Origin: Bacteroidota bacterium
GTDB taxonomy: Bacteria; Bacteroidota; Bacteroidia; CAILMK01; JAAYUY01
Length of the DNA stretch: 35,840 nt
Direction: 5' to 3'
Assembly: GCA_018698135.1 (NCBI GenBank)
Contig: JABINZ010000103.1
Span: forward strand, 1 to 35,840
A program made the position numbers and the translations under genes. Under the pieces are notes generated by a model. That model ran no database searches and was not told where the DNA came from. It worked only from the letters and a program-made list of their open reading frames with translations. Every line of letters starts with the position of its first letter. Within the stretch, counting starts at the first letter, position 1. Shown here piece after piece: positions 2,944 through 35,213 of this stretch.

Positions 2944-2956
2944 ATTTTTTTTTGGC

Positions 2957-2985
2957 AAAAAAAAAGCCGACTTTTAAGTCGGCTT
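2957..2985 (-). terminator. Intrinsic terminator of the carboxyltransferase gene
   Basis: A 10-bp perfect stem (AAGCCGACTT / AAGTCGGCTT, 2964-2973 and 2976-2985) with a 2-nt loop is followed, in minus-strand reading, by a run of nine T. It begins a few bases after the stop codon of the 2990-4531 gene. On the plus strand no T-run follows the stem. Confidence 0.85.
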
Positions 2986-2989
2986 CATA

Positions 2990-4531
2990 TTACAATGGAA
3001 TATTTCCGTGTTTTTTACGAGGCAAAGTGTCTACTTTATTCTCAAGCATTTTGAATGCCCGAATTAAGCGATCTCTAGTTTCGTGTGGTTTAATCACTTC
3101 ATCAATATAACCATGAGCAGCACCACGATAAGGATGTAAAAATTCTGTTGTATACTCAGCTTCTTTTTCTAAAAGTTTTTCCTCCGGTTTTTCAGCATCA
3201 GCTATTTCCTTTCTGAAAATAATTTCAGCTGCTCCTTTTGGTCCCATAACAGCTATCGATGCATTTGGCCAGGCAAAATTCATATCTGCTCCAATATGTT
3301 TGGAATTCATCACATCATATGCACCACCAAAAGCTTTACGGGTGATTACAGAAACGCGGGCAACCGTTGCTTCAGAAAAAGCATACAGCAATTTTGCTCC
3401 ATTGGTAATAATGCCATTCCATTCCTGATCGGTTCCAGGTAAAAAGCCCGGAACATCAACTAAAACTAAAAGTGGGATGTTAAATGAATCGCAAAAACGA
3501 ACAAAACGAGCTCCTTTTTTGGAAGCATCAATGTCCAATACACCTGCTAAACTTGCTGGCTGATTGGCAACAATACCAATGCTTTTTCCTGCAAGTCGTC
3601 CAAAGCCAACGACAATATTCTCAGCATAATCTTTATGAATTTCGAAAAAACTGTCATCATCAATTGCCTTCTCAATCACTTCTTTTATATCGTAAGGCTG
3701 ATTATCATTGTCAGGAAGAATGGAGTCTAAATCCATTACAAACTCCGAATCATCAGATTTGTATTCTAGTGAGGGTGGGTTTTCTTCACAATTTTGAGGA
3801 ATATAACTCAGTAGCTTCTTGATATTTTCAATAGCTTCCATTTCATTAGCTGAAGTGTAGTGGCAAACTCCAGATTTGGATGCATGTGTAAATGCTCCAC
3901 CTAATTCTTCAAAAGTGACTTCCTCATGTGTAACTGTTTTAACCACATTAGGGCCAGTAACAAACATATGAGATGAACTATCAACCATCATAATAAAATC
4001 GGTTATTGCTGGAGAATAAACGGCTCCTCCGGCACAAGGACCCATAATGGATGATATCTGAGGAATTACACCAGAAGCACGAGTGTTTCTATAAAATATA
4101 TCGGCATAACCTCCTAATGAAACTATTCCTTCTTGAATTCGGGCGCCACCTGAATCATTTAAACCAATAACTGGAGCCCCATTTTTCATGGCAAGATCCA
4201 TGATTTTGACAATTTTCTCTGCATGTTTTTCGGCCAACGATCCCCCGAACACGGTGAAGTCCTGAGAAAAAATATAAACCAATCGTCCATTGATATTTCC
4301 ATAACCAGTAATTACCCCATCACCAAGGAATTTTTGCTTTTCCAAGCCATACTGATTTGATCGGTGCTGAACCAACATACCTGTTTCTTGAAATGAACCT
4401 TCATCCAATAAGAAATGAATTCTTTCTCGTGCAGTTAGTTTTCCTTTTTTGTGTTGAGATTCTATTCTTTTCTCTCCACCACCTTTTAGGGCTTCATTTC
4501 TTTTTTCGTCTAGTTGTTGATATTTGCTCAT
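2990..4531 (-). CDS. pccB: Acyl-CoA carboxylase (propionyl-CoA type) carboxyltransferase subunit
   Basis: This 513-residue protein is the usual length for the PccB/MmdA family. It carries out the second half-reaction, moving CO2 from carboxybiotin to an acyl-CoA, probably propionyl-CoA to methylmalonyl-CoA. Visible hallmarks: KKGKLTARERIHFLLDEGSF (29-47), SGGARIQEG (127-135), GPCAGGAVYSP (164-174, N-lobe oxyanion hole), DVPGFLPG (359-366) and RKAFGGAYDVM (398-408, C-lobe). The other two activities are encoded just upstream, on different strands. The same fold occurs in sodium-pumping decarboxylases (MmdA), but the free-standing biotin carboxylase beside it favours a carboxylase. The substrate is inferred, not shown. 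It ends at a strong terminator. Confidence 0.92.
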   Translation of the reverse strand: MSKYQQLDEKRNEALKGGGEKRIESQHKKGKLTARERIHFLLDEGSFQETGMLVQHRSNQYGLEKQKFLGDGVITGYGNINGRLVYIFSQDFTVFGGSLAEKHAEKIVKIMDLAMKNGAPVIGLNDSGGARIQEGIVSLGGYADIFYRNTRASGVIPQISSIMGPCAGGAVYSPAITDFIMMVDSSSHMFVTGPNVVKTVTHEEVTFEELGGAFTHASKSGVCHYTSANEMEAIENIKKLLSYIPQNCEENPPSLEYKSDDSEFVMDLDSILPDNDNQPYDIKEVIEKAIDDDSFFEIHKDYAENIVVGFGRLAGKSIGIVANQPASLAGVLDIDASKKGARFVRFCDSFNIPLLVLVDVPGFLPGTDQEWNGIITNGAKLLYAFSEATVARVSVITRKAFGGAYDVMNSKHIGADMNFAWPNASIAVMGPKGAAEIIFRKEIADAEKPEEKLLEKEAEYTTEFLHPYRGAAHGYIDEVIKPHETRDRLIRAFKMLENKVDTLPRKKHGNIPL

Positions 4532-6987: not shown

Positions 6988-7419
6988 ATGAACTTCTTAC
7001 GATCATACGAAAACGGATCACATAAACATGTTAAAAGTTATTTTGAAAACCTGATTTCTATAGCCATGGCTGATGGAAAAATGGACGATAGTGAATATGC
7101 GTTTTTATTACGTGTTGGCGAAAAGCTGTTTACAACAGAAGATGAAATAAAAAACATCCTGGATCATCCAAAACATTATGTATTTCATGCTCCTGCCAGC
7201 AAAGATGCACGTCTGGAACTCTTAAAGGATTTGGTTGCCATGTTGTTGGTAGACGGAAAAATTCTTGAGGAAGAAATAAAAATGTGCAGAAAATTTGCCA
7301 TTGTGCTTCATTATAAACCAGAAATAGTTGTTCAAATAGTAAACTGTCTGGTAAAATATGCTTCAACAGAATTTGATAAATATGATGTGCTTGCAGAAAT
7401 CGAAGAGATTGCTGAATGA
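6988..7419 (+). CDS. TerB-like helical protein
   Basis: This 143-residue all-helical protein has two acidic 'AMADGKMDDSE' / 'LLVDGKILEEE' repeats (about 27-37 and 88-98), the EF-hand-like DGxxxxxE turns of the TerB/DjlA N-terminal family. TerB folds bind metal and act in envelope or stress signalling; tellurite resistance is only the historic name. It is cytoplasmic, with no signal peptide. It has its own promoter (6926-6956). The last two codons and stop lie inside the first copy of a duplicated leader sequence that belongs to the next gene. Family call is good; role unknown. Confidence 0.72.
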   Translation: MNFLRSYENGSHKHVKSYFENLISIAMADGKMDDSEYAFLLRVGEKLFTTEDEIKNILDHPKHYVFHAPASKDARLELLKDLVAMLLVDGKILEEEIKMCRKFAIVLHYKPEIVVQIVNCLVKYASTEFDKYDVLAEIEEIAE

Positions 7420-7565
7420 TTATAATGCGAGTTCCATGTGACCTTTTAAATTTAAATATAGACATATGAAACAAGCATGAGTAAAAAATTTCTCACACAT
7501 AGGAATGATTATAATGCGAGTTCCATCTGACAACTAAAAAACAATTATAAACAGATGAAAAAGTT
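7414..7565 (+). repeat. Tandem duplication (89-bp offset) of the leader and start codon of the 7555 gene
   Basis: A perfect 24-bp repeat (beginning GAATGATTATAATGCGAG) occurs at 7414-7437 and 7503-7526. The flanks also match in register: TGAC follows one base later, and an ATGAAA lies at 7466 and again at 7555, exactly 89 bp apart. The second ATG starts the outer-membrane protein; the first gives only Met-Lys-Gln-Ala-stop. The first copy overlaps the stop codon of the TerB-like gene. Middles of the copies have diverged. It may be an old duplication of a 5' leader or a paired regulatory element. Confidence 0.75.
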
Positions 7566-16613: not shown

Positions 16614-16636
16614 GAATTAAGTCTGTAACTTGATCC
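16614..16636. repeat. Dispersed 23-bp hairpin repeat, copy 3
   Basis: GAATTAAGTC, TGT, AACTTGATCC: the same repeat as at 9421 and 10913, with two changes that weaken the stem. It is not next to a gene end. Confidence 0.55.
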
Positions 16637-21996: not shown

Positions 21997-23169
21997 ATGA
22001 ATTACGCTTACTCACATATTTCCCCAACTTTTCCGTACGTATACGCCCCGCAAGGAAATTTGGGCTCCCTATGTAATTGGGAACCAATTACTAAAAAGGG
22101 TGTTAGTACCTATAGGTTCGGTTTTAACGGTATGGAAAAAGATGATGAGATTAGAGGTGCTGGATTATCTTATAACTTTGGAGCCAGGAGCATTTATGAT
22201 GGAAGACTAGCAAGGTTTATTTCTGTTGATCCTGATTTCAGTAAATATCCTTATGCAAGCCCATATGCATATGCCCTGAATTGCCCAATCTCTTTTATTG
22301 ATTATGATGGTAGGGGAATTATTCCAGGTCTAAAGGAGTGGGGTTTTAGAAATGGGTATTCAGCAGGTTTGTTTGCAGGTATAATGGATTCTTATGCTGA
22401 AGGGACGAAATTTGCATTAGAACTATATAAGTATATTCCTGCAGCACAGATAGCTGGTCCATATGGATTCATTGGCATGGCTGTTCTCGATTATCGAAGA
22501 ACAAAAGAGCTAAGGAAAAACATCGTTGCTATAGCTACTGATTCTGAACTTAGAGGTAATGCTGTAGATATGATAGAAGGAGCATTAGGAAATTATATAA
22601 AAGAATTCACTGGGTTAGAAGGGTCTGGAGCTCAGGGATATGCTCATGGTACATTGATTTGGACTGCAGCGGAATCAGCTCTCGGTGGAGGAGCATTTTT
22701 GAAGGCAATTAAAGCAGGAAAATTTTCATTGAATCAGGTAAAGCAGATTAAACTGGCAGCTTTAAGCAGTATTGTCGGAGTATCAGAAGGAACTACTGCA
22801 TTAAACAGGATTGCAAGAAGGACTGCTGGTTTTATAAATAAAATTGAATGGCATCATGTTATTCCGAAAAACCTTAAAAGTAACCTAGTAGTTAAAGCGG
22901 CAATTAGGAAAGGGTTTGACTTTGAGGGAAAACTCGCAAATAAAATACCATTAGAGAAATATCTTTATAAGAACGGTTCAGGGACACATGGTCATTCACC
23001 TAAATATGATGCACAGGTTCTTGATGAAATTGAAAATTTTTCTAAATTGAATCCAAATTTTACAGATAAAGATGCTTATGATTTTTTGAATAGTACGTAT
23101 AATGATATTATTAAGGTAATCGATGAGAATCCAAAAGTGAAACTTAATGATTTGAATTTGAATTTATAG
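21997..23169 (+). CDS. RHS tip protein with AHH/ENDO VII-type nuclease toxin domain
   Basis: This 390-residue protein has an RHS core (STYRFGFNGMEKDDEIRGAG...IYDGRLARFISVDPDF...YASPYAYALNCPISFIDYDGRG, about 38-107), a helical linker region, and a C-terminal nuclease-like domain. The latter has WHHVIPK (285-291), GFDFEGKLANKIPL and GTHGHSPKYDAQV (H331, H333), the His-His-x-x-P plus H-x-H/Y spacing of AHH or related HNH/ENDO VII toxins. DNA or RNA cleavage is predicted from motif only. No signal peptide or YD-repeat shell is present. It is followed after 11 bp by an Imm11-like gene. Confidence 0.78.
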   Translation: MNYAYSHISPTFPYVYAPQGNLGSLCNWEPITKKGVSTYRFGFNGMEKDDEIRGAGLSYNFGARSIYDGRLARFISVDPDFSKYPYASPYAYALNCPISFIDYDGRGIIPGLKEWGFRNGYSAGLFAGIMDSYAEGTKFALELYKYIPAAQIAGPYGFIGMAVLDYRRTKELRKNIVAIATDSELRGNAVDMIEGALGNYIKEFTGLEGSGAQGYAHGTLIWTAAESALGGGAFLKAIKAGKFSLNQVKQIKLAALSSIVGVSEGTTALNRIARRTAGFINKIEWHHVIPKNLKSNLVVKAAIRKGFDFEGKLANKIPLEKYLYKNGSGTHGHSPKYDAQVLDEIENFSKLNPNFTDKDAYDFLNSTYNDIIKVIDENPKVKLNDLNLNL

Positions 23170-23180
23170 AATAATTAAAA

Positions 23181-23849
23181 ATGAAATATTATAGATTAAT
23201 TGAAAGTACAAATCTCAAGGAAATTGGAATTTATCCACAAGTTATTGATCATAAAAAAGATTATGATGAAGATAAGCTTGATTCATATATGTTAACTAAT
23301 AAGTTCCCTTCAGAGTTACCGTGTATTAATTTTGATTTTGATGGATTGCTTTTAAACAATCGTTCGAAATATACGGATTTAGTTAGTTCATCGTTTTTGA
23401 ACTCATTAATAGGTTTGATTATTAGTTCTCAATTCCTCAAGATTGTTGAAAACTTTAAGACTGTGGATTATAAGCTTTTTAATGCTTGTTTGTATTTTAA
23501 AAAAATGAGGGTTCAATATTACTGGATGCACTATACCTCTGAATTAACTGAATACATTGATTTTGAAAATTCAGTTTTCAGGTTAAAAACATCTGAAGGT
23601 CGTAAGGAAGTATTGCTTAAATCAATAGATGATTATTTTGAACTAAGAAATTCTATTAAATCATGGAGTATTGTTAAACCAACAAAACTGAGTTTGTTTA
23701 AACAGATGGATTATTCTTATGATTTATTTAGAATAGGCTTAATTGATAGTAATACTTATGTGTCAGAACGATTAAAGGATGAATTTGCAAAAAACAACAT
23801 AACAGGTGTTGAATTTGAGGATACAGATGGCTATATGTTTTTTACTTAA
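23181..23849 (+). CDS. Imm11/DUF1629-like immunity protein
   Basis: This 222-residue soluble protein probably protects against the nuclease tip encoded 11 bp upstream. Its C-terminal half, FDLFR-like YDLFRIGLIDSNTYVSERLKDEFAKNNITGVEFEDTD, closely fits the end of DUF1629/Imm11 proteins (…SERLK…ITGxxFEE). The earlier YYWMHY and YIDFENSVFRLK parts also fit that family. Position directly after a toxin domain supports the assignment; specificity for this toxin is inferred. Confidence 0.68.
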   Translation: MKYYRLIESTNLKEIGIYPQVIDHKKDYDEDKLDSYMLTNKFPSELPCINFDFDGLLLNNRSKYTDLVSSSFLNSLIGLIISSQFLKIVENFKTVDYKLFNACLYFKKMRVQYYWMHYTSELTEYIDFENSVFRLKTSEGRKEVLLKSIDDYFELRNSIKSWSIVKPTKLSLFKQMDYSYDLFRIGLIDSNTYVSERLKDEFAKNNITGVEFEDTDGYMFFT

Positions 23850-24844: not shown

Positions 24845-26275
24845 TTATTTATTTATTTTCATGTCAAGCGTATTTTTCCCGACTGTGTATGCATAAGCTG
24901 ATGAAGGTAAAAATTGGAAATGAATGTCTGCAAATTCAACTTCCCCTTCTTTACTTATTGACGTAACAATTGGTGTTTTAATACTATTTTCTTGACAAAA
25001 TTTGATTAAACTTTTTAATTCTTTTGGTTTTTCAAAATATCGATCAGACCATTTGATCTCCAGAGCCCAAATAGGCTTCAACGTATTATCGCTTCGTCCA
25101 ACCATATCCACTTCGCCATTGCTCCATCTGGCGTAATAGGGTGTAAACCAATCCCTATGCATCCATTGAGCAAATATTGCTGTTTCAACCATATTTCCTA
25201 TCATTTCATCCGTAGCAGTTATAGGTGTAAATAATGCGCTTCTTAATGAAGGATTCGTTAAGTAAATTTTGAAAAAATTATCTCGTTTGAATCTTTTCCC
25301 ACTTTGATCAATTCGTTTTACTTGCTTTATTAGGAATGCTGCTTCTAAATATTCGATATACTTTTTTAAAGTGTTTTTAGGTACTTGTGATTGTTTACTC
25401 AAGGTCTCAAGCGAAAATTCACTTCCACTATTGTATGCAATTGTTGTGAACAAAGAATATAACTCTCTTGTGTCGCTTATACCATAGAGACTAGGTAAAT
25501 CTCTAAGTATAACTTTGTCTACAATATCTTGCCTAATATATCGCCCTGGGTTCGCTTGAATTCTCTCAGAAAGTATAACTTCAGGGTAGCCTCCAAAGTT
25601 GATGTAATCCAAAAAATGCCTGTTAAGCTCATCTAAATGACTTGTCGAATAAAATTCTGTCTGTTTATCAGTCCAATTTAGCTGTATAGGCTTAATGAGT
25701 CTGTCCAAACCTTTTAAAGATATGTATTCATTAAAGGTAAGGGGAGGAAGTAAGAAATCTGTAAATCGACCTGCCCCACTTTCATTACTTGCAAACTTTA
25801 AGGCAGCTGCTGCGGAACCAGATACGATAAACTTATCTTTTCTATAGCTATCTACCAGTGATTTTAAATGTACCTCCCAATCTCTGCAGTATTGTATTTC
25901 ATCAAATATTATGTGCCAATCAGATTTATCAGTCAGACCAGTAGCTTCTTTTGAATAAATAAAAAGTTGTTCAAGAGATATATTGTTATAAATGGGATTT
26001 TCTATGGTTATAAATATTATTTTTTTTGGATTTGCTCCATTTTCGATCAATTCCTGAACCATATGATAGAGCATAACTGTCTTTCCAACTCTTCTTGGCC
26101 CCATCAATACCACTGCTCTTCTAATTTCTCTTTCTTTGACCAATGGCTTAAATAGTTCAAAGTATAATCTTCGTGGCATCTCATTGTAATCAGCTTCAAT
26201 TACGCCTTCTATCCACCATGGATTCTCATAGCGAATTCGGTCTAATACCTGATCTTTGGAAATTTCTCGTATCAT
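24845..26275 (-). CDS. AAA_14/DUF4143 ATPase with nuclease-like C-terminus
   Basis: This 476-residue protein has an N-terminal extension, Walker A GPRRVGKT (59-66), a Walker B-like WHIIFDEIQY, sensor-like FIVSGSAAAALKFASNESGAGRFTDFLLPPLTFNEYI, a winged-helix region (LSKQSQVPKNTLKKYIEYLEAAFLI) and a C-terminal GEVDMVGRSDNTLKPIWALEIKW with a D...ExK set as in PD-(D/E)XK folds. Families AAA_14 and DUF4143 fit. The function of these abundant genes is unknown; a mobile or conflict role is suspected. A palindrome is present in the promoter region and repeat B follows the stop. Confidence 0.85.
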   Translation of the reverse strand: MIREISKDQVLDRIRYENPWWIEGVIEADYNEMPRRLYFELFKPLVKEREIRRAVVLMGPRRVGKTVMLYHMVQELIENGANPKKIIFITIENPIYNNISLEQLFIYSKEATGLTDKSDWHIIFDEIQYCRDWEVHLKSLVDSYRKDKFIVSGSAAAALKFASNESGAGRFTDFLLPPLTFNEYISLKGLDRLIKPIQLNWTDKQTEFYSTSHLDELNRHFLDYINFGGYPEVILSERIQANPGRYIRQDIVDKVILRDLPSLYGISDTRELYSLFTTIAYNSGSEFSLETLSKQSQVPKNTLKKYIEYLEAAFLIKQVKRIDQSGKRFKRDNFFKIYLTNPSLRSALFTPITATDEMIGNMVETAIFAQWMHRDWFTPYYARWSNGEVDMVGRSDNTLKPIWALEIKWSDRYFEKPKELKSLIKFCQENSIKTPIVTSISKEGEVEFADIHFQFLPSSAYAYTVGKNTLDMKINK

Positions 26276-26293
26276 CTAATGTTTATTTGGCAT

Positions 26294-26329
26294 CAAAGAT
26301 ACTAAATAAGATTATATAAATGATCTTAT
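26294..26329 (-). promoter_or_regulatory. Promoter with embedded palindrome for the 24845 ATPase gene
   Basis: Minus-strand TATCTTTG (26301-26294) fits the -7 consensus, 18 bp before the start codon. Immediately upstream is an inverted repeat ATAAGAT/ATCTTAT (26306-26312 and 26323-26329), where an autorepressor could cover the promoter. No clear TTTG -33 box is seen. Confidence 0.5.
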
Positions 26330-26504
26330 AGTTGCAATATGTTCTTTTTAAAGAAAAATGAGGTGTGTGGGGTTCTTATTTTCCGATACTTTACAAGGCT
26401 AACAAAACTCTTATATGGTATGTTTAATAAAATACAGTTGAACGGGAATCGAATCAGTCAAACAATACTAATTCAGGGAGTTAAGTGGCTGCATGTAAAA
26501 TCAT

Positions 26505-26760
26505 CAAAAAAAAAAGCCCCTGAAAATCAGAGGCTTTTGCCATTGTAGCGGGGACGGGACAAATATCGAACTTTTCTAATAATCCAAACTATCGAATTGA
26601 TAATGATATCAGCCTGATACTGAGTCATTCAGATAACCTTGATAATATAATACTTCAAAAAACAAGTTAATGAATGGTCTGTAACTTCAGACTTTGCCTT
26701 CAGAAAAGCGCATTTTTCTTAATGCAGTGGTTATAATAGTTTTCGTAAAATGAAGTTTTA
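26505..26760 (-). repeat. Island repeat, copy C
   Basis: Has the core GTAGCGGGGACGGGACAAAT and the same terminator as copy B in minus-strand sense, plus about 200 bp matching B and E. The internal CTGCCCG...CAGGCGGG hairpin is cleanly missing (AAAAGCGCATTTTT at about 26704-26717 replaces it). AACGGGAATCGAATC (26441-26455) lies before it. It sits between two divergent ATPase genes. A frame at 26339-26548 runs through it and is not a gene. Confidence 0.75.
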
Positions 26761-26830
26761 CCTTTTTTTCTAACAGGAGGTGCTATTCATTAAAATTTCT
26801 CAGTTTATAACTCCCCACCATACTCACTGT

Positions 26831-26881
26831 TTTCATTATAATGAAATTATACTGTATATTTGAAAAAACATTTCATTATGA
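26831..26881 (+). promoter_or_regulatory. Promoter with embedded palindrome for the 26878 ATPase gene
   Basis: A perfect 16-bp palindrome TTTCATTATAATGAAA (26831-26846) lies just before a -7 box TATATTTG (26855-26862). A second, near-palindromic TTTCATTATGAA (26870-26881) overlaps the start codon. Binding at both sites would block transcription and translation start, which suggests autoregulation. Confidence 0.6.
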
Positions 26882-28083
26882 AGACTGCGTATATTAGGGG
26901 AAAGTACTTGGATAAGGTGAAGCCATTTATCGGCAAAAGCATAATTAAAGTCCTGACAGGACAAAGACGTGTTGGGAAAACAACTATTCTCATTCAAATT
27001 ATTGACTTTATTAAACAAGAAGATAAAAATGCCCATGTTATTTATATCAACAAGGAGCATAATGATTTTAAGTTCATAAAAGAAGCAGAAGATTTATTTC
27101 AGTATGTAAAATCTAAATTATCCAAAAACAAAACAAACTATGTATTTATTGATGAAATACAGGAAATAAATGAATTTGAAATTGCATTAAGGCAAATGCT
27201 TGTAGAAGGGATTGATTTATATTGTACCGGAAGCAATGCTAAAATGTTATCCGGGGATTTGGCCACACATCTTTCAGGACGCTTTATAGAGTTTCATATC
27301 AGCAGCCTTTCCTTCAATGAATTTTTGCAGATTCATAAATTGGAAAATAACAATGATGCCTTAAATAAATATATTCGGTATGGAGGAATGCCTTATTTAA
27401 TTCATCTGCCTTTTGATGATGAAATCGTATATGGTTATCTGAAAAGCATATACAATACAATTATTTTAAAAGATATTGTAGCAAGATACAGTATCAGGGA
27501 TATTGACTTTTTGGAGCGGTTGGTTGAATATTTATCTGATAACCTCGGGAGTTATGTGTCATCAAAAAGAATCAGCGATTTTTTAAAAGCACAAAGAGTT
27601 AGTTTATCAGTTAATACTGTTATGAATTACCTTAAATTTCTTGCCAACTCATTTTTTATTAATAAAGTGCAACGCCTCGATATCATTGGTAAAAAAAGAT
27701 TTGAGATAAATGACAAATACTTTTTCTCCGATTTAGGATTGAAACATGCCATTATTCCATATACTGGCAATCAAATAGGAAATATTTTCGAGAATTTGGT
27801 GTATAATCAGTTAATCTATGAGGACTATAAAGTTTATATAGGAAAACACCAGGAAAGAGAAATTGATTTTGTTGCTCAAAAAGGAAATGAAACCAAATAT
27901 ATACAGGTTGCCTATCTGCTGCCTGACGAAAAAGTTAGAGAAAGAGAATTTGGGAATCTTCTAAGAATAGAAGATAATTATGAGAAGATTGTTGTATCAG
28001 CTGATGAGTTTGCAGAGGATTATAAAGGAATAAAGCATATGCACATCAGTAAGTTTCTAACATCCTCCCATAAAAGAATTTAG
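26878..28083 (+). CDS. AAA_14/DUF4143 ATPase (second of three)
   Basis: About 401 residues from the ATG at 26878; a TTG at 26860 would add MKKHFI but lies in the -7 box, so it is rejected. Walker A GQRRVGKT (28-35), Walker B-like YVFIDEIQEI, sensor GSNAKMLSGDLATHLSGRF, a winged-helix region (SSKRISDFLKAQRVSLSVNTVMNYLKFL) and C-terminal REIDFVAQKGNETKYIQVAY. In the last motif the ExK of nuclease-like domains is replaced by Q-V-A, so this copy may have lost any cleavage site. It differs strongly in sequence from its two neighbours, so the cluster did not arise by recent duplication. Confidence 0.85.
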   Translation: MKTAYIRGKYLDKVKPFIGKSIIKVLTGQRRVGKTTILIQIIDFIKQEDKNAHVIYINKEHNDFKFIKEAEDLFQYVKSKLSKNKTNYVFIDEIQEINEFEIALRQMLVEGIDLYCTGSNAKMLSGDLATHLSGRFIEFHISSLSFNEFLQIHKLENNNDALNKYIRYGGMPYLIHLPFDDEIVYGYLKSIYNTIILKDIVARYSIRDIDFLERLVEYLSDNLGSYVSSKRISDFLKAQRVSLSVNTVMNYLKFLANSFFINKVQRLDIIGKKRFEINDKYFFSDLGLKHAIIPYTGNQIGNIFENLVYNQLIYEDYKVYIGKHQEREIDFVAQKGNETKYIQVAYLLPDEKVREREFGNLLRIEDNYEKIVVSADEFAEDYKGIKHMHISKFLTSSHKRI

Positions 28084-28184
28084 AAATAATCTTCTGGTGA
28101 AGATAGTAATAAACCAAAAGACATTGAACAGGAATCGAACCACCAATATTTACATTGTCAGCTCATTAGAGAAATCTATTAAAC

Positions 28185-28290
28185 AACAGAAGCCTCTGAA
28201 AATCAGAGGCTTCTGTCCTAGTAGCAGGGACGGGACAAATATCGAACTATATCATGATAGATGTCGGATTAATTATTGATCATGTAAACT
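28185..28290 (-). repeat. Island repeat, copy D (short form)
   Basis: Has the core GTAGCAGGGACGGGACAAAT (28220-28239). The terminator stem is AGAAGCCTCTG/CAGAGGCTTCT, changed on both strands relative to the AAAAGCC/GGCTTTT stem of other copies, a compensating change. Right of the core it follows the short-form sequence shared with F and G (GGATTAATTATTGATCATG). GAACAGGAATCGAACC (28127-28142) lies before it. A frame at 28097-28279 is made of this repeat and is not a gene. Confidence 0.75.
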
Positions 28291-28303
28291 TGCAGTCCAA
28301 TAT

Positions 28304-28398
28304 GTACAAATTCAAAATATAAACTGTGTAATATAAAAATGAATAATGTGTATATTCAAAATTAGAAGCGTGTAAATTCAAGATATAACGTATGTTTG
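28304..28398 (+). promoter_or_regulatory. Four 22-bp iterons plus -7 box before the third ATPase gene
   Basis: Four direct repeats start at 28304, 28326, 28348 and 28370, each exactly 22 bp. Units 1, 3 and 4 share GTnnAnATTCAAnAT; unit 2 starts GTGTAATATAAA and is more diverged. A 22-bp step is about two helix turns, so bound proteins would lie on one face. TATGTTTG (28391-28398), a -7-like box, ends 4 bp before the ATG, so a leaderless transcript is possible. Confidence 0.65.
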
Positions 28399-28402
28399 TA
28401 CT

Positions 28403-29560
28403 ATGAAAATTGAACGGAACATTGCCCACTCTTTATTAGCAATGATAACAAAATACCAGGTAATTGCATTAACCGGCCCCAGACAATCGGGAAAAACAAC
28501 ATTATTAAAAGATCTCTTTAGTGAATATGATTATGTAAGTCTTGAAAATCCGGACAACAGGGCATTTGCTGACAGTGATCCCAACGGATTTTTATTAAGG
28601 TATGCTTCAAAAGTTATTATCGATGAAGCTCAAAGGGTACCCCATATATTTTCATATATTCAAACAAAGGTGGATGAGTCAAATGAAATGGGACAGTATA
28701 TTCTATCAGGTTCGCAGAATTTCCATTTAATGCAGGAGATTACCCAGAGTCTTGCAGGAAGAGTAGCAATATTCAAATTATTTCCTTTTGACCTATTGGA
28801 AATGAAGGATGGGGGAATATTAAACAAAGATTATTTAGCGAACCTAATTACCGGATTTTATCCAGCAATATTTGACAGAAAGATAAAACCTCGAACATAT
28901 TATTCAAATTATATTCAGACTTATATTCAAAGAGATGTAAGTCAAATAATTGGTATAAGAGATCAGAATTCTTTTAAAAAATTCCTTGGAATCGTAGCAA
29001 TTCGTGCTGGACAGCTATTGAATTTAAATGATATTGCAAGGGAGATTGGAATTACTCAACCAACAGCAAAATCTTGGTTATCAGCACTTGAAAGTAGTTA
29101 TATTGTTTTTAGTCTTCAACCCTATCATGAAAACTTCAGTAAAAGAGTTGTAAAAACTCCCAAACTATATTTTTATGATACAGGTTTGCTATGTTTCCTT
29201 TTAAAGATCAAACAGACTGAAGATCTTTATACACATCCCATTAAAGGAAATCTGTTTGAGAATTTAATTATTGCTGAATATTTTAAAAGGATGTATCATC
29301 TTGATGAAATAAACGATTTATGGTTTTGGAGAGACTCACATGGCAACGAAGTTGATCTTCTGTATTTCAAAGAAAACGATCTTTACATTACTGAAATAAA
29401 AGCCAATCAGACAATTATGCCACGGCATTTTAAAGGACTTTCCTATTTTGAGAAACACGCAAAAAGCTACAAATTAATTAAGCAACTGGTTTATGCTGGC
29501 AATGATAATCATGAAAGGAATTTGGGTAAAGTTGTCTCATGGAAAGACTTAATCTATTAA
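28403..29560 (+). CDS. AAA_14/DUF4143 ATPase (third of three)
   Basis: A 385-residue protein of standard AAA_14 + DUF4143 layout: Walker A GPRQSGKTT (25-33), YVSLENPDNRAFADSDP, Walker B-like VIIDEAQRVP, SGSQNFHLMQEITQSLAGRVAIFKLFPF, winged helix (NDIAREIGITQPTAKSWLSALESSYIVF) and C-terminal NEVDLLYFKENDLYITEIKA with an intact D...ExK set. The start is placed at the ATG just after the 22-bp iterons, in line with the family N-terminus (MKIERNIAHSLLAMITKYQVIALTGPRQ). Repeat E begins 2 bp after the stop. Biochemical role unknown. Confidence 0.9.
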   Translation: MKIERNIAHSLLAMITKYQVIALTGPRQSGKTTLLKDLFSEYDYVSLENPDNRAFADSDPNGFLLRYASKVIIDEAQRVPHIFSYIQTKVDESNEMGQYILSGSQNFHLMQEITQSLAGRVAIFKLFPFDLLEMKDGGILNKDYLANLITGFYPAIFDRKIKPRTYYSNYIQTYIQRDVSQIIGIRDQNSFKKFLGIVAIRAGQLLNLNDIAREIGITQPTAKSWLSALESSYIVFSLQPYHENFSKRVVKTPKLYFYDTGLLCFLLKIKQTEDLYTHPIKGNLFENLIIAEYFKRMYHLDEINDLWFWRDSHGNEVDLLYFKENDLYITEIKANQTIMPRHFKGLSYFEKHAKSYKLIKQLVYAGNDNHERNLGKVVSWKDLIY

Positions 29561-29561
29561 A

Positions 29562-29884
29562 AAACAAAAGCCCCTGAAAATCAGAGGCTTTTGCCATTGT
29601 AGCAGGGACGGGACAAATATCGAACTTTTCTAATAATCCTAACTATCGATTTGATAATGATATTAGCCTGATAATGAGTCATTCAGATAACTTTGATAAT
29701 ATAATACTTTAAAAAATAAATTAATGAATGGTCTGTAACTTCGGACTAGGTCTTCGGAAAAGCCTGCCCGACTATGACATTCAGGCGGGCACATTTTTCT
29801 TAATGTAATGACCACAATGGTTTTCGTTAATTCTAAAAATTGGGCTCATTTCATATCACTCAATTTGCTTCTTGTTTGTTACCA
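29562..29884 (-). repeat. Island repeat, copy E (full length)
   Basis: A full-length copy like B: minus-strand order is an internal GCCTGCCCG...CAGGCGGGC hairpin, the GTTCGATATTTGTCCC and GTCCCTGCTAC segment, then AAAAGCCTCTG-ATTTT-CAGGGGCTTTT and a T-run. It starts two bases after the ATPase stop (29560) and its far end overlaps the last codons of the Fic gene (stop at 29879), so it is the shared 3' region of two convergent genes. Confidence 0.8.
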
Positions 29885-30892
29885 TTCAGGAAATTTATTG
29901 ATCATATTAATAATCAGTTTTATCATTGTCTCTTTATGGTCAGGGTGGCTATAAGCAATTAATAATGCCAGAGCCGTTAAACCATTTTCATCAATTTTAA
30001 GTTTTCCTTTTTCTGTAAAACGGTGTTTGTTTTTTTCAAGAAACCAAATAAACAAAAATGCACCGATTCTCTTGTTACCATCTACAAAGGGGTGATTTTT
30101 TATTATAAAATAGAGTAAATGTGCAGCTTGTTCTTCGATACTTGAATATAGATAAACACCATCAAATGTTTGAATGATATTTTCCAGACACCCTTTTAAT
30201 GAACTACCAAGTTGTTTCCCAAATACATCAGATGCTTCTTTTTTTTCTATTAAGCTCTTTTTGAGCTTATCAATAGCTGTTAAAGCTTCTTTATATTCAA
30301 TTATATAGGTTAACTCATGTGTAGTATTTTCAATTAAGAGTGTGCCTGAATCATGTTTGTTGATCAGTACAAAAGTCCTTGTATAATTATTAATAATATT
30401 TAACAAGCCTTTAGCTTCATCAATATTCAATACAGAGTTTTCAGAAGTCTTGTGAATTTGCTTGATAATATTTTCAAGGTCATTCAGATTTTCTGAAAGT
30501 TGGAGCAATCTCTTCTCATTTATAGTATAGCCTTGAACCAGATGTTCTTTTAGCCTGTTGGTAGCCCATATTCGAAATTGTGTACCCCTTTTTGAATTAA
30601 CTCTGTATCCAACAGAAATGATAGCATCAAGATTATAAAACTTGATATTTCTTCGTACATTTCGTTTCCCTTCCTTTTGAACTACCGAGAAAAACTCGGT
30701 AGTTGCTCTTTCTTCCAATTCCTCTTCAGAATAAATATTTTTCAAATGCAATCCAATAGTATCGGAGTCCTTATCAAATAGTTCGGCCATTAATTTCTGG
30801 GTCAACCAAACTGTTTCTTCCTCAAACCTAACGTCAACAATGGCTTCATGTTCCGCTGTCTGATAAATAATAATATCGCCCTTGCTTTTCAT
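29879..30892 (-). CDS. RhuM-Fic protein
   Basis: About 337 residues from the ATG at 30892; a start at 30913 adds MRIIYSI. The N-terminal part (to about residue 130) is RhuM-like: VWLTQKLMAELFDKDSDTIGLHLKNIYSEEEL, then KFYNLDAIISVGYRVNSKRGTQFRIWAT. The C-terminal part is a Fic/DOC domain with HPFVDGNKRIG (274-284 in the longer form), the intact motif for AMP transfer to a target protein. RhuM-Fic fusions occur in phage, island and toxin-like loci. No antitoxin gene is adjacent, so self-inhibition or a cis target is possible. It terminates in repeat E. Confidence 0.88.
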   Translation of the reverse strand: MKSKGDIIIYQTAEHEAIVDVRFEEETVWLTQKLMAELFDKDSDTIGLHLKNIYSEEELEERATTEFFSVVQKEGKRNVRRNIKFYNLDAIISVGYRVNSKRGTQFRIWATNRLKEHLVQGYTINEKRLLQLSENLNDLENIIKQIHKTSENSVLNIDEAKGLLNIINNYTRTFVLINKHDSGTLLIENTTHELTYIIEYKEALTAIDKLKKSLIEKKEASDVFGKQLGSSLKGCLENIIQTFDGVYLYSSIEEQAAHLLYFIIKNHPFVDGNKRIGAFLFIWFLEKNKHRFTEKGKLKIDENGLTALALLIAYSHPDHKETMIKLIINMINKFPEW

Positions 30893-31060
30893 AATTGAAT
30901 ATATAATTCTCAAATTTATGAAAGATTTGACTTTATATACGATTTTCTTCTCTTAGAGCAATGTTTGATTATTGGTTCAAGAACTTGGTGTAAAACAATC
31001 AAAGACAAACATGAAGTGGTAATATTGTGACTGGAAATAATAAAAATTGCAATTTACTTT

Positions 31061-31245
31061 AACAGGAATCGAACCTGTCAAGTTTTACAATATCAGGTGG
31101 TTAAAGTGTTTTTGGTATTACTGTAAAAAACAAAAGCCTCTGAAAATCAGAGGCTTTTGCCATTGTAGCAGGGACGGGACAAATATCGAACTTTTTCACT
31201 CAGGATATGGGATTGATTATTGAGCATGCAAAGCTTGTGGGAGTG
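31061..31245 (-). repeat. Island repeat, copy F, with T-arm-like module
   Basis: Minus strand: GTTCGATATTTGTCCC and GTCCCTGCTAC, then terminator AAAAGCCTCTG-ATTTT-CAGAGGCTTTT (fully paired) with a T-run. Further downstream, ACAGG-TTCGATT-CCTGT (31061-31079 region) is a perfect tRNA-like T-arm, flanked by ACTTTA and TAAAGT, which can pair as a six-base outer stem with only about 23 nt in place of the D and anticodon arms. It lies 3' of the HNH gene. Confidence 0.7.
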
Positions 31246-31292
31246 GCTTTCTGAGTACAATTAGATTAAGTTAGCTGTATGGAAGTATCTTA

Positions 31293-32096
31293 TTATCTAA
31301 TTCTTTTATATATATTTCTAAGTAATTCCTTTTCCGATTCGTTTTCAGTTATCAATCCTTTTAGAACAATATAACCAAGCTCCTTTACCTGGTCAAGATT
31401 CTTGTTCTTAGCTGGAATGAAATCATGATAGTCGAACCATTTTTCACCTTTTTGTTTCAGTGCAATTTGAAATGAATAATAATTCTCTTTTCCATAAATT
31501 CGGATCTGATGATGAGAATGAGTATTGAAGATATATTCATTTCTATTCTTTGTAAGTCCACTTTGCCAATTTGAAGTATTTACAAAGTCACTAGTTTTCT
31601 TAAATATTTTTAAGACTTCATGACTTATGAATTGATCTTCTCTGGTTAAATGTTCAATACAAGTGCTGCCAACAGTTTTGTAACCCCATTGAGGATGGTA
31701 TGTTACGTGCTCATACCTAATTTCTTTTCCACAGCCTTTTCTTTCGCAAATACCAGACAAATCTTCCAAATCATATATTGAGATTAGAGTCCAGCCATAA
31801 TCAGGTTCTATCAAACCATGATTCTTGGCATGACATCCCTTACATAAAGTTATACAATCACTATGAGGGTATTCCCAAAGCTCTATATCAGGCTTATATG
31901 TCGTATGATGAGTCTGAAGTACAACATTTGGTTCTTTTCGCCCGCATTTAAGACAACTATACCCATCTCTACGTTTTACAACATTGGAAAAGTTGTACCA
32001 TTTAGTATTGTAATATGACCTTCTTTTCATTTTCATCCAAAGATCAATTAGTGGTTTACATCTATCCTTGCTAAAAGTTATGTAATGAAAGTGCAA
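31293..32096 (-). CDS. HNH endonuclease
   Basis: This 267-residue protein has an HNH fold with two zinc-binding Cys pairs: C48 and C51 in SCLKCGRKEP, catalytic HH (63-64) in LQTHHTTYKP, and C85, C88, H89 and H93 in ITLCKGCHAKNHG. The motifs are those of an active His-metal nuclease cleaving DNA. The C-terminal half has a second Cys pair (GICERKGCGKEI) and YHPQWGYKTVGSTCIEHL, not assigned. A shorter start at Met21 (32036) is possible. It is the last gene of the repeat-punctuated island; whether it mobilises DNA, defends the cell or degrades foreign DNA cannot be told. Confidence 0.82.
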   Translation of the reverse strand: MHFHYITFSKDRCKPLIDLWMKMKRRSYYNTKWYNFSNVVKRRDGYSCLKCGRKEPNVVLQTHHTTYKPDIELWEYPHSDCITLCKGCHAKNHGLIEPDYGWTLISIYDLEDLSGICERKGCGKEIRYEHVTYHPQWGYKTVGSTCIEHLTREDQFISHEVLKIFKKTSDFVNTSNWQSGLTKNRNEYIFNTHSHHQIRIYGKENYYSFQIALKQKGEKWFDYHDFIPAKNKNLDQVKELGYIVLKGLITENESEKELLRNIYKRIR

Positions 32097-32147
32097 TTGT
32101 AGTATATTAATTTAAACTGTTAAAATAATCTTCCAAAAAGCCTAGCT

Positions 32148-32170
32148 AGAACGCATATGTTATGCGTTCT
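32148..32170. repeat. Perfect 10-bp-stem hairpin between the island and the ABC-3C system
   Basis: AGAACGCATA, TGT, TATGCGTTCT form a perfect stem with a 3-nt loop at 32148-32170. About 60 bp on, AGACGTA (32230-32236) and TACGTCT (32269-32275) make a second inverted pair enclosing 32 nt, followed by seven G (32276-32282). Both lie at the boundary of two accessory modules and could mark an insertion junction. Confidence 0.55.
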
Positions 32171-32302
32171 CTAACTCAATTCTATCAGAATCCTAAAATA
32201 TTAATTAGTTTTGAATAAAATCTATTAGTAGACGTATAGTTACGTTATAGCCAATGAGGGAAAAGTGCTACGTCTGGGGGGGTGAGTTGAAATCAAATTA
32301 AG

Positions 32303-32310
32303 TATATTTG
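32303..32310 (+). promoter_or_regulatory. Candidate -7 box for the ABC-3C operon
   Basis: TATATTTG fits TAnnTTTG and ends 20 bp before the ATG at 32331. A -33 TTTG is not seen at the expected spacing. Confidence 0.4.
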
Positions 32311-32330
32311 CATCAAATGATTTAAATAAA

Positions 32331-33299
32331 ATGAATAGGAATCCTTACTTTAATTACATAGAAGAGAAACTTCATATTCTAGCAAGGAGAATTGAAACAA
32401 GGGGAAAGTTGAACCTTCTTGATATTCATTTACATTCAGAGAACTTCTATCTACATTTTTTTAATCTATTATACGGATATAAACTTGAGAACCAAAACTC
32501 AAAACTTCAAAATGTTGAAGCAATTGACCTAATTGACCATACGAATAGAATAATAATTCAAGTATCAGCAACTTGTACAAAACAAAAAATAGAATCTGCT
32601 TTAAATAAAAAGATATTGGATAGTTATAATAATTATTCATTCAAGTTTATATCAATCTCAAAAGATGCATCAGAGTTGCGGAAGAAGTTGTTTACTAATT
32701 CTTACTCTCTATCTTTTTCTCCAACATCAGACATTTTCGATATTACATCTATTTTAAATGATATTTTAAATAAACAAGCACCTGAACTTAAGGAAATTTA
32801 TAAATTCATAAAAAATGAATTGGGTAATGAAATTGATATTGTGAAACTTGATTCAAATCTTGCTTCTGTAATAAATATCTTATCTAAAGAAACTTGGGAC
32901 GAAACAAATAAGAGTGATTCGGTAAACAGCTTTGAAATTGAAAGAAAAATATCATTTAATGACCTGAAACATTCAAAAGACATAATTGATGAGTATTGTG
33001 TCTATTACAAAAAAGTTGATGAAAAGTATTCTGAATTTGATACATTAGGTGCAAATAAAAGCAATTCGGTTTTAGCAACTATTAAAAGAGAATACCTTAA
33101 ACTGAAAAATATTGGAAATTCTGATTCTGTTTTTTCTGCAGTTTTGGAGAAAGTTAAGAATAAGGTATTAGAAAGTTCAAATTTTGTTGAAATCCCCATT
33201 GATGAATTAGAATTATGTATTGACATATTAGTTGTAGATGCTTTTATTCGTTGCAAAATTTTTGATAATCCTCAAAACTACAACTATGCTACTACCTGA
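32331..33299 (+). CDS. ABC-3C system SMEK-domain protein
   Basis: This 322-residue protein is the effector-side component of an ABC three-component system. Its start (NRNPYFNYIEEKLHILARRIETRGKLNLLDIHLHSENFYLHFFNLLYGYKL) and EAIDLIDHTNRIIIQVSATCTKQKIESAL fit the SMEK domain; D50-like and IIIQVSA positions resemble a restriction-fold core. The rest is helical, about 170-322. It overlaps the middle component gene by 14 bp. In the described classification of ABC-3C systems, such proteins accompany a DUF2326-type ATPase and act in predicted biological conflict. Function in this organism is inferred. Confidence 0.78.
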   Translation: MNRNPYFNYIEEKLHILARRIETRGKLNLLDIHLHSENFYLHFFNLLYGYKLENQNSKLQNVEAIDLIDHTNRIIIQVSATCTKQKIESALNKKILDSYNNYSFKFISISKDASELRKKLFTNSYSLSFSPTSDIFDITSILNDILNKQAPELKEIYKFIKNELGNEIDIVKLDSNLASVINILSKETWDETNKSDSVNSFEIERKISFNDLKHSKDIIDEYCVYYKKVDEKYSEFDTLGANKSNSVLATIKREYLKLKNIGNSDSVFSAVLEKVKNKVLESSNFVEIPIDELELCIDILVVDAFIRCKIFDNPQNYNYATT

Positions 33300-33510
33300 T
33301 AATATTCATCCTGACAACAGTATCTATTATAATGGAGCAATAGTTTTACGGGTACTTCAAAAGAAAAGTGAAATTGATTTAATTAATCTTTTTCAAGAAG
33401 TAAAACAAATTAAAGAAATAGCCTTTCCTGTTTTTATTTTATGTCTAGACTGGTTGTATATTGCAAATATTGCAGAAGTTAAAGAAGGGAGAGTCGCATT
33501 ATGTTCTTAA
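33286..33510 (+). CDS. ABC-3C system middle component
   Basis: A 74-residue protein starting MLLPDNIHPDNSIYYNGAIVLRVLQ and continuing LFQEVKQIKEIAFPVFILCLDWLYIANIAEVKEGRVALCS. The 'MLLP-x-x-x-H', helix and 'F-x-L-x-L-x-WLY' layout fits small ABC-3C middle components (winged-helix-like adaptors). The ATG at 33286 is chosen over 33238 because the longer form only reuses the C-terminal SMEK codons. It overlaps the SMEK gene by 14 bp and the ATPase gene by 10 bp, so the three proteins are translated as a coupled set. Confidence 0.75.
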   Translation: MLLPDNIHPDNSIYYNGAIVLRVLQKKSEIDLINLFQEVKQIKEIAFPVFILCLDWLYIANIAEVKEGRVALCS

Positions 33511-35213
33511 AATCACTTACAATTTCAAAAGGAGCCTCTGTAATTCGCGATATCGTATTTAGAAAAGGAATAAATCTTATCGTTGACAATAGTGAGGGTC
33601 AAATAACAGGGAATAGCGTTGGAAAAACTACAGTTTTAAAGCTTATTGATTTTTGCTTTGGTGCAGACAAGAAGAACATTTGGGAAGATCCTGAAAACAA
33701 AAAAGAGGTTTACGCTCTTGTAAAGGATTACTTAATTGACAAGGAAATTCTAATTACTCTATGTTTGACAGAAAATATTGATGACCCAAATGCGCAAGAA
33801 TTAGTTATTGAAAGGAATTTTTTAAGTTCTAAAAGTAAGGTGATTAGAAAAGTAAATGAAACAAGTCTTACTGAAGATGAATTTGAATCAAAGCTTACGG
33901 AAATACTATTTCCAGAACATTTAGCAGATAAACCAACTCTTAGACAAATAATATCTCATAATATACGATACAAAGATTTAAGCATAAACAATACTCTTAA
34001 AACACTTGACCGATATACTTCAGACGCTGAGTATGAAACATTGCATTTGTATTTATTGGGGTGTGAGTTTACAAAAGGGAATAACAAACAGGAACTATTA
34101 AGCAAAATAAAGCAAGAAGATACTTTTAGAAAAAGGTTAGAGAAAGTGCAAACTAAATCAGCTTTTGAAGCCACGTTATCATTAATTGAAAGCGAAATAG
34201 AAGACCTCAATTTTAAAAAATCGAAGTTGAATTTGAATGAAAACTTTGAAGCCGACCTTGATGCCCTTAATCAGTTAAAATATCTCATTAATAAACAAAG
34301 TTCTGAAATCAGCAAGTTAAATATCAGACGAGATTTAATACATGAAACATTATCAGAATTAGAAGCTTCCAATTCTAGTATCGACATTGACCAACTAAGA
34401 CAGATATATCAACAAGCAACAAAAGTTCTTGGGGAACTTCAAAAGTCTTTTGAAAACATGGTTGAATACCATGACAATATGATTTCTGAAAAGAAGAAAT
34501 TTATTTCAAATGAATTGCCTGCTTTAGACTCAAAAATAGAGCAACACAATAAAAATTTGAAAGTCCTTTTAAAGAAAGAATCTGATTTGTCCCAAATAAT
34601 CTCAAAGAGTGATTCATTTGAAGAACTTGAAATCTTGATTGGGCAATTAAATGAAAAATATAGATTAAAAGGAGAATACGAAAATACTGTTCAACAATTA
34701 AATGAAGTTGAAAGTAATCTTGAAGGCTATAATAATTCTCTGAGGACTATCGATGAAGAGCTTTTTTCAGATGATTTTGAAGCAACTGTAAAACTTCAGC
34801 TAAATAAATTTAATAAACACTTTGCATCTGTTTCTGAACTTCTATATGATGAAAGATATGCTTTAAAGTATGATAAAGTAAAAAACAAGAAAGGACAACG
34901 CCTTTATAAGTTTAGTGCCTTTAATACCAATTTTAGTTCTGGAAAAAAGCAAGGTGAAATATCTTGTTTTGACATTGCTTATACCTTTTTTGCAGATGAA
35001 GAAAATATTCCTTGTATGCATTTTATCCTTAACGACAAGAAAGAATTAATGCATGACAATCAACTTGTTAAAATAGCAGACTTAGTGAATACGAATGATA
35101 TTCAATTTGTAGCTTCAATTTTAAGGGATAAGCTTCCTGATGAATTAAATAAGGAAGAATATTTTATTATAGAATTGTCAGAAGATAATAAGTTGTTTCA
35201 GATAGAGAATTAG
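33501..35213 (+). CDS. ABC-3C system ATPase (DUF2326-type, SMC/Rad50-like)
   Basis: This 570-residue protein has Walker A GNSVGKTT (37-44) after ISKGASVIRDIVFRKGINLIVDNSEGQ, a long coiled-coil centre (about 200-430, rich in Glu, Lys, Leu), and a C-terminal part (about 490-550) with the signature region FSSGKKQGEISCFDIAYTFF followed by the Walker B/D-loop area IPCMHFILNDKKELMHDNQL. The layout is that of DUF2326 ABC ATPases, RecN/SMC-like proteins that probably sense DNA. It completes the SMEK-middle-ATPase operon. Confidence 0.86.
   Translation: MFLKSLTISKGASVIRDIVFRKGINLIVDNSEGQITGNSVGKTTVLKLIDFCFGADKKNIWEDPENKKEVYALVKDYLIDKEILITLCLTENIDDPNAQELVIERNFLSSKSKVIRKVNETSLTEDEFESKLTEILFPEHLADKPTLRQIISHNIRYKDLSINNTLKTLDRYTSDAEYETLHLYLLGCEFTKGNNKQELLSKIKQEDTFRKRLEKVQTKSAFEATLSLIESEIEDLNFKKSKLNLNENFEADLDALNQLKYLINKQSSEISKLNIRRDLIHETLSELEASNSSIDIDQLRQIYQQATKVLGELQKSFENMVEYHDNMISEKKKFISNELPALDSKIEQHNKNLKVLLKKESDLSQIISKSDSFEELEILIGQLNEKYRLKGEYENTVQQLNEVESNLEGYNNSLRTIDEELFSDDFEATVKLQLNKFNKHFASVSELLYDERYALKYDKVKNKKGQRLYKFSAFNTNFSSGKKQGEISCFDIAYTFFADEENIPCMHFILNDKKELMHDNQLVKIADLVNTNDIQFVASILRDKLPDELNKEEYFIIELSEDNKLFQIEN

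Follow-up and report, generated by a model that had tools for sequence, protein, structure and literature searches.

A 22-bp repeat array as the putative private operator of a PDC-S01-type ATPase-nuclease gene in Bacteroidota

Restriction-modification C proteins, antitoxins, and BrxR-type repressors are element-encoded, bind repeats that overlap promoters, and limit a toxic effector. Several ATPases of the STAND and Orc1/Cdc6 types also bind repeated DNA sites, and MalT is an activator that binds repeated sites. R6K and pPS10 carry 22-bp iterons (PMC4980987), and RepE of F binds iterons directly and, as a dimer, binds an inverted-repeat operator through which its gene is autoregulated (PMC4980987, PMC13028717). 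PDC-S01 is a PADLOC phage defence candidate (PDC) made up of a single gene encoding an ATPase fused to a PD-(D/E)XK domain; it is reported as the fourth most common defence system, with candidate status, across prokaryotes, and the antiviral activity of most PDCs is described as unvalidated (PMC12988326). No prior description of an operator of a PDC-S01 gene, or of how PDC-S01 works, was found in the literature searched.

The locus presented here lies within a window of 35,840 nucleotides (the whole stretch of DNA that was analyzed; contig JABINZ010000103.1 of Bacteroidota bacterium assembly GCA_018698135.1), in which a 22-bp repeat array directly precedes gene P0001. As in PDC-S01, the predicted product combines an ATPase with a PD-(D/E)XK domain, and the model match covered nearly its whole length; P0001 was thus predicted to be a candidate antiviral defence gene. 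The published passages on PDC-S01 that were consulted describe neither an operator nor regulation, whereas P0001 has a promoter array. With the iteron initiators (R6K pi, pPS10 RepA, and F RepE), P0001 shares a winged helix in its modeled structure, and with R6K and pPS10 it shares 22-bp direct repeats, while F RepE is a parallel for one protein using both direct repeats and an inverted-repeat operator (PMC13028717). Unlike in those systems, the direct repeats at P0001 themselves lie on the promoter, nothing points to an origin, and the product combines an AAA+ ATPase with a nuclease domain. Promoter-overlapping repeats are common to P0001 and the C protein, antitoxin, and BrxR-type cases, but here a single gene makes up the unit, and effector and proposed repressor would be one and the same protein. 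STAND and Orc1/Cdc6-type ATPases (MalT, Apaf-1, PABY2304, and Cdc6/Orc1) resemble P0001 in having an AAA+ core followed by a winged helix, but TM-scores were low (0.23 to 0.48), and P0001 has a C-terminal nuclease domain rather than their sensor/repeat domains.

Array, promoter, and gene product

The features of the array, the promoter, and the gene were as follows.

28304 to 28325, forward strand: iteron unit 1 (GTACAAATTCAAAATATAAACT), 2 mismatches to the clade core consensus TGTAAWTTSAAAATA
28326 to 28347, forward strand: iteron unit 2, degenerate, with TATAAA replacing ATTCAA, 3 mismatches to the same consensus
28348 to 28369, forward strand: iteron unit 3 (GTGTATATTCAAAATTAGAAGC), 2 mismatches
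28370 to 28391, forward strand: iteron unit 4 (GTGTAAATTCAAGATATAACGT), 1 mismatch
28391 to 28398, forward strand: Bacteroidota-type -7 promoter box TATGTTTG (consensus TAnnTTTG; PMC7366714)
28403 to 29560, forward strand: gene P0001 (385 amino acids; AAA_14 and DUF4143; PADLOC PDC-S01 match), the proposed binder of the array
28955 to 29182, forward strand: winged-helix region of P0001, residues ~185 to 260 (AlphaFold2)
29243 to 29437, forward strand: PD-(D/E)XK-type nuclease core of P0001, residues ~281 to 345 (conserved residues and AlphaFold2)

The original prediction, made from the letters of the DNA, described four exact 22-bp iterons with a shared ATTCAA core. The four start positions and the spacing held, with all three unit-to-unit gaps exactly 22 bp, but the units were not exact copies (TRF: period 22, 3.5 copies, 68% matches), and ATTCAA was found in units 1, 3, and 4 only; unit 2 was likewise degenerate in a homologue 95% identical to P0001. 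Period 22 matched at 30 of 44 positions, a level reached by none of 500 dinucleotide shuffles at any period from 8 to 40, and the 22-bp periodicity in the window is beyond chance. A repeat finder run at default settings did not list a direct repeat at the array. The predicted -7-like box and start codon were recovered, the box matching the TAnnTTTG consensus of Bacteroides and Flavobacterium (PMC7366714) and ending 4 nt upstream of the ATG at 28403, so the P0001 mRNA is probably leaderless. The core of unit 4 stops 5 bp short of the box, which places this unit over the expected -33 region. No second array was found at 3 mismatches in the window's own genome or in 394 other sampled Bacteroidota genomes, and therefore no regulon was found. 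Single units occurred in the genome at near-background frequency (27, versus 15 for the reversed pattern). Comparisons of the array with phage and viral contigs (exact matches) and with Rfam returned no match.

P0001 was assigned to the AAA_14/DUF4143 family (PF13173 and PF13635), with both domains in order and above curated cut-offs (AAA_14, 100.1 bits against a cut-off of 27; DUF4143, 162.1 bits against 28.1), and it matched PADLOC model PDLC04790 (PDC-S01) over residues 3 to 368 of 385 (6.7e-98). In an alignment of 58 sequences, the Walker A and B motifs were intact (G25, G30, K31, D74, and E75 invariant), and PD-(D/E)XK-type residues E286, E316, E331, and K333 were also invariant, with D318 conserved at ≥90%. 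The AlphaFold2 model (mean pLDDT, 91.9) comprised a P-loop ATPase core, a winged helix (helices 188 to 200, 208 to 215, and 219 to 231; strands 235 to 238 and 254 to 257), and, at the C terminus, a mixed sheet compatible with a nuclease fold. Fold matches in the PDB for the AAA+ part were PABY2304, MalT, Cdc6/Orc1, Apaf-1, and RuvB, all with low overall TM-scores (0.2 to 0.5). VC1899 and Can2 were also among the fold matches, again with low overall TM-scores, and were taken to reflect the predicted nuclease domain. A sequence search of the PDB with P0001 returned nothing useful.

Repeats upstream of homologues and across the family

All 15 of the nearest homologues (55 to 95% protein identity) carried 3 to 6 of the same units upstream, and the best upstream period was exactly 22 in each, so that none of these close homologues lacked the periodic repeat. 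A scan with the core TGTAAWTTSAAAATA, in which gaps of 21 to 23 bp were permitted, recovered 67 units over 16 genes (the window's and the 15 homologues'; 3 to 6 each), and all 51 gaps were 22 bp. The exact spacing was thus kept down to ~55% protein identity, over several genera of Bacteroidota, and the claim that this is an ordered array rather than chance AT-rich sequence was borne out. The distance from the last unit to a TAnnTTTG-like box was 5 bp in 9 of the 16 genes and 3 to 7 bp in 13; the last unit ends just before the box and the array therefore covers the -33 region. Homologues were situated on contigs of 2 to 4.8 Mb.

Repeats were then scored across the family in bacterial genes, with the best inverted and best direct repeat between -100 and +3 of each gene compared to 100 dinucleotide shuffles. 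Start codons in the family set were picked by rule, and several loci were contigs of metagenome-assembled genomes (MAGs), whose taxonomic assignment may be incorrect. A significant inverted or direct repeat (P ≤ 0.01) was found for 69% of 143 family genes, mainly from Bacteroidota, and for 10% of 144 control genes of the same loci (Mann-Whitney test, P = 4e-18 for inverted and P = 1e-9 for direct repeats); about 30% of the family genes had no significant repeat by these criteria. At least one of the controls that scored positive (at locus L151) has a family operator on its opposite strand, and the difference is therefore more likely understated than overstated. The significant share was still 69% when one gene was kept per 45% identity cluster. 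Outside Bacteroidota, 53% of 70 genes were significant, including members from Chlamydiae, Proteobacteria, and Spirochaetota; a significant 22-bp direct repeat was found in Rhizobium, and 22-bp-spaced repeats below significance were found in Agrobacterium and Sphingomonas.

The periods of the 53 significant direct repeats were concentrated at 22 (17 genes), 23 (2 genes), 32 (21 genes), and 33 bp (7 genes), that is, at about two and three helical turns. No period peak was found among the controls, and 12 of 15 protein clusters had a dominant period of 22/23 or 32/33 bp. Such quantized spacing predicts how protomers would be arranged on the DNA. A second architecture, with repeats spaced 32/33 bp (three turns), was observed in a subfamily represented by L080, L092, and L093, and short palindromes such as GGATTACAATCC were present around the promoters of L080 and L093.

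Operator specificity, transfer, and change of form

Similarity between putative operators depended on the relatedness of the proteins: it was near background below 45% protein identity, and pairs exceeding the similarity threshold made up 45% of those at 55 to 70% identity and 80% of those above 70%. Operators of the paralogues in the window's own genome were mutually dissimilar. Both the array and the operator of a further paralogue, C108, occurred once in that genome, and two neighboring paralogues within the window had candidate operators of their own.

26831 to 26846, forward strand: perfect palindrome TTTCATTATAATGAAA, preceding a -7 box at 26855 to 26862 and a paralogue with its ATG at 26878
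26306 to 26329, reverse strand: inverted repeat ATAAGAT-N10-ATCTTAT, preceding a -7 box at 26294 to 26301 and a paralogue at 24845 to 26275 on the minus strand

Two MAG contigs with different taxonomic labels (L008 and L017) matched each other (97% identity) over no more than the stretch that begins where the array starts and ends 3 bp beyond the stop codon, and the 95% match between the window and its nearest relative (L005) was confined to 28220 to 29571. From these alignments, the unit of transfer is the putative operator plus the gene, which makes the gene's own product the natural candidate for the binder. Judged from the sequences compared, family operators diverge with the protein, vary between the paralogues of a single genome, and can be transferred together with just the gene. 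A Chlamydiae MAG of ~2.2 Mb (the genome of L031) contained 36 DUF4143 matches, many with different promoter palindromes, and this set is natural test material for private operator specificity. Since most family members carry putative private promoter operators, the genome sequence gives the likely DNA site of each product, so that binding, nucleotide dependence, and induction are testable at once.

The next relatives of the array homologues lacked the array, and most had, in the corresponding position, an inverted repeat of 33 to 41 bp, whose half-site was in several of them that of the array. These included Halochromatium (TTACAATTTGAAG-N7-CTTCAATTTGTAA), and the C108 paralogue of the window's genome likewise shared its half-site with the array (TTGCAAATTGAAA-N7-TTTCAATTTGCAA). 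The palindromes were considered as terminators and rejected on the basis of their positions at or before the -7 box and their lack of T-runs. In a tree of 59 proteins, the members with the 22-bp array formed one clade (SH-aLRT, 94) nested among inverted-repeat members, with an inverted operator in its sister (Emticicia), and only two direct/inverted changes were needed among the rows that the threshold classified. Owing to this nesting and to the inverted sister, the window's array looks like a palindromic operator that turned tandem. Such a switch within one clade is a natural experiment in operator evolution. Tandem PDC-S01-type paralogues were observed at 1501 to 2655 and 2955 to 4118 of homologue locus L006: a 22-bp iteron array belongs to the first, and the second, whose identity to P0001 is 43%, has an inverted repeat of 37 bp.

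Autoregulation, alternatives, and surroundings

The repeats lie at the promoter and are conserved with the gene, as is characteristic of an operator, and we consider it likely that the array is the private autoregulatory operator of P0001, bound by the gene's own product and probably repressive. Autoregulation by the ATPase had been proposed as the simplest model, and nearly every computational test run here favored it. P0001 would bind the array cooperatively, most likely through its winged-helix domain, each 22-bp unit taking a single protomer and all protomers lying on the same face of the DNA. Occupancy of the -33 region would shut out RNA polymerase, a step proposed because the last unit lies over that region, 5 bp from the -7 box, and the steady-state level of the ATPase-nuclease would be held low. 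Release could come from nucleotide state, from an invader, or from titration of P0001. The binder, the releasing signal, and repression as the effect are what we infer here, the repressive sign from the position of the array; activation would leave much the same anatomy.

The suggestion that the winged-helix part could bind the array fared well structurally, with a canonical winged helix in the predicted structure, and less decisively as the array contact. In a regression that used all pairs, the winged-helix domain (wHTH) did not stand out from the AAA domain as a correlate of operator similarity. Among pairs with AAA identities of 0.45 to 0.60, identity of the recognition helix was 0.61 in pairs with similar operators and 0.48 in the others (+0.12), compared to 0.45 and 0.39 for the nuclease (+0.066) and 0.53 and 0.50 for the AAA domain (+0.03). 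These identity-matched pairs favor the recognition helix, a result that is suggestive only, because the pairs are non-independent.

More speculatively, PDC-S01 proteins may be self-repressing effectors for which the private promoter operator forms part of the alarm, loss of the protein from the array inducing its own synthesis; we put this forward tentatively, as doubtful but possible. An ATPase-winged-helix-nuclease that cuts invader DNA would also occupy an operator array with a spacing of two or three turns of the helix. Titration by invader DNA, or a change driven by nucleotide, would free the array and switch on synthesis. The change from palindrome to tandem array in the window's clade would permit a head-to-tail oligomer on the DNA.

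P0001 might instead bind the array mainly as an activator of its own promoter, or as a sensor that responds to an invader through titration, with repression secondary. MalT is among the fold matches, and in Thermus thermophilus HB27 the expression of TT_P0211, for which AAA_14 and DUF4143 motifs are listed, rose 6.6-fold when Argonaute-positive cells carried a plasmid (PMC4406477, Table 1); induction thus occurs in at least one member of the family. This explanation is unlikely given that the last unit covers the -33 region, and that palindromes of many relatives overlap or abut -7 or -35 elements, both as repressor sites do.

An alternative in which the array serves as operator for another regulator, such as a host transcription factor controlling P0001, appears improbable. 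The binder cannot be named from sequence alone, and the regression did not single out the P0001 wHTH. However, the paralogues of one genome have operators unrelated to one another, so a single host factor would need a different specificity for every gene; in addition, the array is absent elsewhere in the genome, the unit and the gene move together with no other gene in common, and the same unit recurs over several Bacteroidota genera.

We regard as very improbable a site of action of the protein, either replication-origin-like iterons, the recognition site for an initiator that had been offered as the second possibility, or a nicking or recombination site that makes the gene mobile. The 22-bp iterons of R6K and pPS10 are paired with winged-helix initiators (PMC4980987), the nuclease motif of P0001 is intact, and gene and array were transferred as a unit. 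Against this, the array is locked to the -7 box, the same arrangement occurs on chromosome-sized contigs, relatives carry palindromes where arrays would be, and the segment shared by L008 and L017 ends too soon downstream to accommodate a matching array there. DnaA-box-like sites in the window were at chance (8, versus 7.2 expected), the nearest being at 29227, within the P0001 open reading frame (ORF). Chance periodicity or an inherited low-complexity tract, for which an AT-rich window and divergent units could be cited, has next to no probability and was refuted by the shuffles, by the exact spacing in the homologue scan, and by the controls from the same loci, which had no such excess.

Around the putative autoregulatory operator and its gene, the segment from 24845 to 35213 looks, by its gene content, like a defence-type island. 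It holds three PDC-S01 genes (P0001 and two other AAA_14 genes that match the same PADLOC PDC-S01 models), a RhuM/Fic gene matching PDC-S23, an SMEK-CTD10 gene of the ABC-three-component type, and a DUF2326 gene with weak similarity to LmuB. Gene modules are separated by an intergenic repeat of 100 to 260 bp, composed of a terminator-like hairpin followed by TTGTAGCAGGGACGGGACAAATATCGAAC, which resembles a disrupted tRNA 3' end. Seven copies were found in the window (at 16624, 19736, 24488, 26497, 28180, 29551, and 31124), and the genome gave 11 matches; the homology between the ATPase unit and L005 terminates inside this repeat. The arrangement is cassette-like, with possible tRNA-derived attachment sites. 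An ORF with an AHH-type nuclease domain is directly followed by an Imm11 immunity-family ORF (21997 to 23849), and the two may constitute a polymorphic toxin-immunity pair. Two 58-bp direct repeats, 89 bp apart and 81% identical, were observed at 7414 to 7560, upstream of an ORF at 7555.
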